From Komagataella phaffii GS115 (taxonomy: Eukaryota > Ascomycota > Pichiomycetes > Pichiales > Pichiaceae), in assembly GCF_000027005.1 (NCBI RefSeq), contig NC_012965.1, positions 1,227,001 through 1,291,000 of the forward strand: 64,000 bases of DNA, read 5' to 3'. The stretch's first letter is position 1, and each line of letters opens with the position of its first letter. The notes beneath the pieces were generated by a model, which ran no database searches, was not told where the DNA came from, and was given only the letters and a program-made list of their open reading frames with translations. Both the position numbers and the translations under genes were made by a program. Shown here one piece after another: positions 9,581-10,801 of the stretch.

Positions 9581-10801
9581 TTAAGCGGAAAGTCCACCAT
9601 AGCATTGCTGGTTCTGCTTCTTTCTCTCATCGAAGACCTTCAGAACTTCCTCTGCGGCCTTGACTCCAGAAAGAGCCATGGCACCGAAAGTGGGACCCAT
9701 TCTGTTGGAACCAGAGTGCTCAGCAACCTCCATACCGGCAACAACCAATCCTGGAGCAATTTCACTGGCACCCTTAACAACAGCATCCTCAGCTTTGTTC
9801 ATGTCAAGACCACGCATACCGTCCATTTTTTTAACGGCACCAATCTCGACACCACGCTTGATGCAGAAAGCACCGAACGGACCATCGTGGCCAGTAGCTG
9901 ACAAAACAACATTAGCGTTGATAGTGTTGGGGTCCATACAAGATTGGTCGTGGTGGTGCATTGTGACCAAAGTCCAGTTGGTAACAACACCAGCAATACG
10001 AATCTGGCCGTTCTCGTCCTTTCTGGTAAGCAAGTCCTCAACAGCGGTGGCATTGAACAGCTTGACGTTAGGAAGAGCAAGAACCTTGGAACAAAGAGTA
10101 GTGATAAAGTAAGCTGCGTGCTTAACAACAACATAATCTCCCTCGTCCTCGTACTCCAATCCAAGATCGTTTAAGAACAAATGAGCAGGCTTTCTCAAGA
10201 CCATAGCAGAGAACAACTGACCACCAAGGAAGCATCCACCACCAACGGCGACGTTTGATTCAATGATGGCAATCTTCAAATCAGGTCTAGCCTTACCCAA
10301 AGTATAAGCAGCAGACAAACCAGCAGAACCAGCACCGACAATCACAACATCCGATTCAGCGTACTTGTCCAAATCAGCAAAGTAACGCTTGGTCATAGCG
10401 CGAGAAACGGTTGACTCACGGATGGGAGCGAACTCAAAGGTGTTCCAGTCAAAAGCTGGGGTAACAGCGTTAGCAACCAGAGAGTCTGGGTTTCTAACAT
10501 TCTGCTTGAGCTTCAGAACCTGGGGTTCGGTGAAAGCTGGAGTGGTTTGAGTTTGAGTTTCAATTGCGGTAGGAGCCCTAAAAATGTTAGTACTTCTCAA
10601 TAATAAGGAAAGCGTCATACGACGTAATAAAAAGAGCAATTCTTTCCGCTAGAATTATCTAGTTCAAGTTCAACCGTTTAATCTCAGCCTTAATGCCTCT
10701 CATTGATTTAATGGGAAACACTTTATGGGCACCGGTTTGCTGAAAGCAATAATTAAGAATACTCCACCTATCATCATGACATCTAAAAAAGATGCTCACA
10801 T
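9581..10801 (-). CDS. THI4: Thiamine thiazole synthase, split start codon, riboswitch-bearing intron
   Basis: Thi4 makes the thiazole half of thiamine from NAD+ and glycine. In fungi it takes sulfur from its own active-site Cys and works once. I read the CDS as exon 2 (9581-10577) plus two bases of exon 1 (AT, 10800-10801), giving 332 aa starting [11 protein letters not shown]. Without splicing the frame has no suitable start: the open frame extends to a TTG at 10639, and the only in-frame ATG (10616-10618) lies inside the intron. The FAD/NAD-type glycine loop GAGSAG is at residues 82-87, and the sulfur donor Cys in QSCMDP is Cys214, aligning with Cys205 of S. cerevisiae Thi4. The product resembles yeast Thi4 throughout. 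The 5' splice site is inferred; the gene call is certain. Confidence 0.93.
10578..10799 (-). other. THI4 5' intron, 222 nt, with inferred GTGAGC donor
   Basis: The 3' end is a textbook yeast acceptor: TACTAAC at 10586-10592 followed by ATTTTTAG, ending at 10578. The branch-point to acceptor spacing matches the other introns in this window. The donor GTGAGC (first base 10799) is the best candidate because it joins AT to GGCTCC and so makes ATG GCT in the Thi4 frame. It is weaker than the GTATGT and GTAAGT donors of neighbouring genes, as expected for a regulated site. At 222 nt the intron is over three times longer than the others, because it houses the aptamer. Confidence 0.8.
10635..10741 (-). 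promoter_or_regulatory. TPP riboswitch aptamer in the THI4 intron
   Basis: Every conserved part of the TPP (THI-box) aptamer can be traced on the minus strand. P1 is AGCAA (10741-10737) with UUGCU (10639-10635). P2 is ACCG (10736-10733) with CGGU (10676-10673). P3 is GCC (10730-10728) with GGC (10689-10687), enclosing a long variable loop as in fungal members. The pyrimidine-sensing CUGAGA box is at 10687-10682. The pyrophosphate-sensing arm has CUU (10668-10666) with AAG (10644-10642) and the hairpin CUAG-AUAAUU-CUAG (10662-10649), followed by the conserved GCGG. This is direct pattern recognition with base pairing, not a covariance-model score. In Neurospora and related fungi, such aptamers control splicing of thiamine genes. 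Confidence 0.93.

Follow-up and report, generated by a model that had tools for sequence, protein, structure and literature searches.

The described systems closest to the locus considered here are TPP riboswitches in the introns of other fungi. The papers cited below by PMC number were available as partial texts, and statements taken from them refer to those texts. In Neurospora crassa, the 5'-UTR riboswitches of THI4 and NMT1 resemble the present locus in that the aptamer sits in a 5' intron, a small uORF is flanked by two donors and an extended P3 is allowed (PMC5997356; PMC5882874); extended P3 stems have been described for fungal TPP riboswitches (PMC5882874). In Ogataea polymorpha, the riboswitch intron of DUR31 is similar in another respect, namely a single donor and acceptor with the protein made from the spliced product only, and the fully spliced product was obtained only without thiamin (PMC5997356).

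Nearer still are the TPP riboswitches reported in 2018 for THI4 introns of the Pichiaceae (PMC5997356), which share with the element of Komagataella phaffii the RNA class, the gene and the intronic site. In the available text of that paper Komagataella appears in the title of a reference only, and a split start codon was not found there. Among the bioinformatic predictions of TPP riboswitches in yeasts, the paper cites a computational survey of non-coding RNAs in K. pastoris GS115 (Schneider et al., 2014), a survey that probably lists the K. phaffii THI4 element. In view of these two reports, the novelty implied by a preliminary description of this locus is not supported. A below-threshold look near THI4 and similar genes revealed nothing more in any other species (PMC5997356), so that an element of the score given below may have been missed there. 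THI4 riboswitches are recorded for just three Saccharomycetes in PMC5882874, the available text of which does not mention Komagataella. As a kind, the K. phaffii THI4 riboswitch is already known, and it is probably known as a copy. We take Komagataella to be a member of the Pichiaceae in the tree of PMC5997356. A split start codon in a riboswitch-bearing THI4 was not found in the small set of literature searched, none of the searches being aimed at split starts alone.

Komagataella phaffii (Pichia pastoris) is in wide use as a host for making proteins, and its methanol pathway has a high demand for TPP. On methanol, with the TPP-dependent Das1 and Das2 abundant, THI4 goes up together with other thiamine genes (PMC4580311), and an RNA-seq paper on P. 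pastoris from 2012 suggested that TPP riboswitches lie behind the induction of thiamine genes under this condition (PMC3547764). If the THI4 leader does contain a protein-free splicing switch repressible by thiamine, some of the response to thiamine would be accounted for, and the switch could be put to use as a compact control element.

The THI4 locus

The window, that is the whole stretch of DNA analysed, comprises 64,000 nucleotides of K. phaffii GS115 (contig NC_012965.1, positions 1,227,001 to 1,291,000), and coordinates are given as positions within it. An alcohol oxidase frame of this genome aligns with residues 1-663 of 663 of PDB 5hsa, alcohol oxidase 1 of Pichia pastoris, at 1552.5 bits.

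9581 to 10577, minus strand: THI4 main exon, thiamine thiazole synthase (PF01946, TIGR00292)

The Thi4 frame matches PF01946 with an E-value of 1.3e-107 and TIGR00292 with 316.6 bits, against a cut-off of 148.3; in K. phaffii, THI4 is PAS_chr3_0648 (PMC12148619). Together with the AU of the preceding exon, the main exon yields a protein of 332 amino acids beginning MAPTAIETQ, and the 331 residues that follow the methionine are 100% identical to the Komagataella kurtzmanii record P0001. The gene upstream of THI4 (11135-12813, minus strand) encodes an NCS1-type permease (PF02133, E 1.1e-81), from a family that includes permeases for cytosine/purines, uracil, thiamine and allantoin. Its final part shifts to another frame from about 11460, which suggests a sequencing error, a frameshift or a pseudogene.

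A complete TPP aptamer upstream of THI4

Directly upstream of the Thi4 frame, and thus adjoining a thiamine gene, lies a complete TPP riboswitch aptamer in which P1 to P5 are all present.

10635 to 10741, minus strand: TPP aptamer, P1 to P5 (RF00059 match 10745-10624, pair list, unconstrained minimum free energy fold)
10741-10737 with 10639-10635, minus strand: P1, Watson-Crick pairs
10736-10733 with 10676-10673, minus strand: P2, Watson-Crick pairs
10730-10728 with 10689-10687, minus strand: P3, Watson-Crick pairs
10690 to 10727, minus strand: extended P3 arm, 8 bp + 4 bp (fold -9.0 kcal/mol)
10681 to 10687, minus strand: CUGAGAU, pyrimidine recognition (sequence; role of GAGAU from PMC5882874)
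10668-10666 with 10644-10642, minus strand: P4, Watson-Crick pairs
10649 to 10662, minus strand: P5, stem CUAG/CUAG (10662-10659 with 10652-10649, Watson-Crick pairs) with an AUAAUU loop

The preliminary description had placed a TPP aptamer within a 5' intron of THI4 in a budding yeast, and this interpretation is supported: motifs and helices are intact, the match to the RF00059 covariance model is full-length, and the sole match found in the genome adjoins the Thi4 frame. CUGAGA (10687-10682), UAAU at 10657 and GCGG at 10649 are present as described, and the pairing claimed for P1, P2 and a three-base-pair P3 base is correct, all 19 of the 19 named pairs being Watson-Crick. What had been called a long P3 loop is a real extension, but its 38 nucleotides fold as a hairpin rather than a loop. 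This arm is unusually stable for its composition in shuffling (z -3.63; 1 of 200 shuffles equally good).

Both ligand-contact motifs are in place, GAGAT at 10685 and TAAT at 10657 in the P5 loop, the former being the motif that contacts the pyrimidine ring in TPP riboswitches (PMC5882874). Conserved spacing of 18 nucleotides between two guanines of J4/5 is a criterion of the same paper, and G10665 and G10647, the pair that we assign to this role, are 18 nucleotides apart. When the 107 nucleotides from 10741 to 10635 are folded in isolation, the unconstrained minimum free energy structure has the architecture of the aptamer, except that A10737 shifts from P1 to P2 and P5 gains one pair. The total energy of this fold is unremarkable (z -0.89; 30 of 200 shuffles equally good), and it is therefore the covariance match, the motifs and the location that carry the case for the aptamer.

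The RF00059 match covers model positions 1-105 of 105, with 40.4 bits and an E-value of 2.2e-6 in a scan of 751 bases; genome-wide (9,216,378 bases, 4 contigs) the same aptamer scores 46.6 bits with an E-value of 2e-7. Both scores lie below the Rfam gathering score (54.3 bits), and for this reason a default Rfam scan of the window misses the aptamer and lists two tRNAs alone. We treat the gathering score as a cut-off for listing rather than as a trait that defines the class biologically. The covariance check that had been suggested for the element thus gives a divided answer: the curated gathering score is missed, but the match is full-length and statistically significant. Just two of the three N. 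crassa riboswitches passed the threshold set in PMC5997356. The alignment contains a 29-nucleotide insertion in P3, itself a well-formed hairpin, which probably lowers the score. The tRNA gene at 14350-14461 (plus strand, 42.6 bits) has 33 bases beside the anticodon arm where the Rfam model has 3, presumably a tRNA intron.

A sequence that misses a curated cut-off might resemble an aptamer by chance, but we regard this as negligible in view of the genome-wide E-value of 2e-7 and of a single match that falls where an intron is predicted, at the beginning of a thiamine gene. The same low score, together with a free fold of the leader that does not favour the aptamer (see below), could also mark the relic of an ancestral THI4 riboswitch that has decayed and no longer binds its ligand. 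This is very improbable, since five helices, CUGAGAU, UAAU and the 18-nucleotide spacing of the guanines are all intact, and the hairpin inserted in P3 probably accounts for some of the lost score. Leaving the split start codon discussed below aside, we are highly confident that the riboswitch itself is genuine, with TPP as its predicted ligand.

At E<=10, the scoring of 49 out of 385 first-look candidates revealed no second RF00059 match in the genome, and no TPP aptamer was found at E<=5 in 27,486 bases covering five SSF-family and two NMT1-type loci. THI4 may be the sole riboswitch-bearing gene in K. phaffii. The riboswitch-bearing DUR31 of O. polymorpha is a transporter gene (PMC5997356); none of the five SSF-family loci scanned in K. 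phaffii carries a match at E<=5. One of the two NMT1-type loci is presumably THI13, and the result there bears on the contribution of the aptamer to regulation. Thiamine genes of K. phaffii, THI13 included, change at the transcript level (PMC10071690; PMC4580311), so the aptamer might bind TPP yet contribute little, with THI4 repressed by thiamine mainly through transcription and the intron spliced constitutively. We consider this distinctly improbable: the helices and ligand-contact motifs are all intact, which would not be expected of a neutral element, and transcriptional and splicing control can act jointly.

Predicted introns and a start codon that appears to be split

Upstream of the main exon, sequence signals delimit two predicted introns.

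10805 to 10861, minus strand: predicted intron 1, 57 nucleotides, GTAAGC...TACTAAC (10822)...CAG, containing ATG 10833
10800 to 10804, minus strand: predicted 5-nucleotide micro-exon AAAAT, carrying the AU of the start codon (follows from the predicted introns)
10578 to 10799, minus strand: predicted intron 2, 222 nucleotides, GTGAGC...TACTAAC...TAG, holding the aptamer (a rival acceptor ends at 10537)
10796 to 10801, minus strand: ATGTGA start-stop, ATG 10801-10799 and TGA 10798-10796, read when intron 2 is kept (isoform translation)

Predicted intron 2 has a perfect TACTAAC (10592-10586) that ends 8 nucleotides before the next exon. It is preceded by exon sequence ending in AAAAT and followed by exon sequence beginning with GGCTCC, so that its modelled removal gives AAAAUGGCU, the start of the 332-residue Thi4; the junction can also be written AAAAUGGCUCC. 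Intron 2 appears to interrupt the start codon as AU/G, which is the reading that we prefer. The aptamer had been placed between the donor and the acceptor of a 5' intron of THI4. It does lie between a predicted donor and acceptor at the 5' end of the gene, but the intron is not wholly within the 5' UTR if the start codon is split.

Five isoforms were modelled from an assumed transcript start at 10926, below TATAAAAG at 10959. With both introns removed the Thi4 AUG comes first (AUUAAAAUGGCU). The two isoforms that keep intron 2 read AUG-UGA from ATG 10801 and encode a single residue. ATG 10833 is the only AUG upstream of the Thi4 AUG in the assumed leader, and in the unspliced leader it opens a 16-codon peptide followed by a stop. 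ATG 10833 was also tried as the Thi4 start in combination with the 10799-10578 splice, and was rejected because of a frameshift that leaves a 32-residue peptide. A further in-frame ATG, at 10618 inside intron 2 and preceded by six ATGs in the unspliced leader, would extend the Thi4 N-terminus by 14 residues; these include two arginines and no acidic residue, and the extension looks like a mitochondrial presequence.

A strict pattern (GTRWGY, TACTAAC, first AG after a pyrimidine, 45-300 nucleotides) finds 14 intron candidates in 264 kb on both strands, whereas 10 first-order Markov nulls average 3.3 (range 0-6), a contrast that supports the introns rather than proves them, as the pattern was picked after seeing the locus. 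Three of the 14 lie in the THI4 leader, and several of the 14 share a donor or an acceptor. Given the excess over the nulls, such an arrangement within a leader of about 130 nucleotides is unlikely to be due to chance, with the same reservation about a pattern chosen after the fact. Counting against intron 2, its donor GTGAGC is rarer before TACTAAC-YAG in the sampled sequence (2 cases) than GTAAGT and GTATGT (7 each).

The splitting of the start codon depends on the acceptor that is used. If the donor at 10799 were joined to an acceptor at 10537, position 10800 would meet 10536 in frame, and a Thi4 of 329 amino acids would begin at ATG 10833, unsplit; the riboswitch would be real all the same, and intron retention would stop translation after 16 codons. 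In yeast splicing, an AG very near the branch site may be used inefficiently, and the first AG here, 8 nucleotides past TACTAAC, is perhaps too close for efficient use. The discovery of this in-frame rival lowers the odds for a split start codon. Still, we judge an unsplit start to be unlikely. It requires that the first AG past a perfect branch site be skipped for one 41 nucleotides further on. Other strict intron candidates predicted in the genome likewise carry an AG within a few nucleotides of TACTAAC. It also loses an 11-residue stretch that resembles the N-terminus of Babjeviella Thi4, and the models from Pichia kudriavzevii and K. kurtzmanii all join at the earlier site.

The leader can also be compared with that of Neurospora. 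Its donors GTAAGC (10861) and GTGAGC (10799) flank ATG 10833, and the order of donor, uORF, donor, aptamer and acceptor is the Type I layout of PMC5882874. Both donors might then share acceptor 10578, with TPP shifting the choice between them and the uORF being kept or lost as a result. This is quite unlikely, because the predicted isoform joining 10861 to 10578 has no AUG for full-length Thi4; its first long frame, of 271 amino acids, starts from an internal methionine. Type I calls for a functional mRNA when the upstream donor is joined to the final acceptor, and the predicted isoform does not provide one. A branch site and an acceptor between the two donors point instead to a separate small intron. 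Unlike in Neurospora, the G of the K. phaffii start codon appears to come from the acceptor. Were the upstream donor used directly, the start codon would be lost, and the Neurospora logic can therefore not apply unchanged.

Thi4 N-termini in related yeasts

Thi4 protein records from related yeasts lend the split start codon some indirect support. Babjeviella Thi4 starts with MAPPTQIETL, resembling the MAPTAIETQ of the preferred reading. Eight records share the P. kudriavzevii Thi4 body from ASATTTTIAQ on, six of them under that species name (the other two are P0025 and P0044), and the point at which the P. kudriavzevii models begin to differ is precisely the codon that follows the presumed methionine. 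The eight show seven different preceding stretches, ending in T, Q, V, L, M, R, Q and R; those of P0025 and P0044 are identical, and those of P0023 and P0027 differ by three residues. Every one of these end residues has a possible codon with G in third position, which fits an exon 2 that starts with the G of AUG; the agreement is weak alone, since 13 of the 20 amino acids have such a codon. Left out of the count were P0053, which has the same body and starts further in at MPISLK, and possible sharers such as P0038 and P0047. Other Pichiaceae models (e.g. P0005, P0007, P0035 and P0059) have N-termini too diverse for such a reading, and P0067 starts directly with MASTT. A Thi4 search for DNA of yeast relatives gave no relatives among viral contigs and 565 among genome contigs; the best 80 of these bear bacterial, archaeal or unclassified microbial titles, with no yeast among them.

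In the annotated K. kurtzmanii Thi4 (P0001, 341 amino acids), the first 10 residues are an exact translation of 10703-10674 (minus strand), inside the aptamer and including CUGAGA. If the split-start reading holds, the annotated start of this record is probably wrong.

In its widest form, this reading holds that the riboswitch governs the very existence of the start codon. AU would be carried by a 5-nucleotide micro-exon and G supplied by the acceptor; with GUGAGC as the donor, retention would read AUG-UGA, and skipping of the micro-exon would delete the start. The split would be common to THI4 of other Pichiaceae and would explain the discordant N-termini proposed by gene finders. We advance this full set of claims tentatively, as possible but somewhat doubtful. 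If the split is real, splicing and initiation are coupled with unusual tightness, and some public Thi4 models in the clade have wrong N-termini, one of them translating part of the aptamer.

Proposed mechanism and folding of the leader

By analogy with the known logic of fungal TPP riboswitches (PMC5997356; PMC5882874), a mechanism can be proposed. When TPP is scarce, intron 2 would be spliced out and AU joined to G, so that Thi4 would begin cleanly at AUG GCU. With TPP in good supply, the aptamer would close and correct splicing of intron 2 would be hindered. The retained intron would present AUG-UGA and further AUGs, so that no Thi4 would be made, and the RNA would probably be decayed. That the K. 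phaffii THI4 5' intron holds a TPP riboswitch through which TPP hinders the correct splicing of intron 2, and that this splicing builds the AU/G start, strikes us as reasonably probable, with binding, intron use, acceptor 10578 and the effect on splicing all inferred.

Which splice element might be masked was approached through base pairing between the aptamer and the splice sites. Four of the nine duplexes computed were compared with 1000 shuffles each, and none of the four was significant: shuffles were as strong in 220 cases for the 5' splice site of intron 2 with the whole aptamer, in 132 for the branch and 3' splice site with the whole aptamer, in 826 for the branch and 3' splice site with the P3 loop and in 996 for the 5' splice site of intron 2 with P4-P5. 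As no tested duplex stood out, we name no masked element.

Of the five helices, the freely folded leader often forms only P5 (probability 0.70), the values for P1-P4 being at most 0.022; imposing the aptamer raises the energy by 7.2 kcal/mol (from -69.3 to -62.1). With the aptamer forced, the unpaired probability stays nearly flat at the 5' splice site of intron 2 (0.24 to 0.25) and at its branch site (0.54 to 0.58), the 3' end of intron 2 opens (0.27 to 0.59) and branch site 1 falls from 0.88 to 0.43. Folding thus goes against simple masking of intron 2, which leaves tertiary or kinetic effects, or an effect on intron 1. At the RNA level, the coding consequence of retention is clear-cut, being either the start-stop or the 16-codon peptide from ATG 10833.
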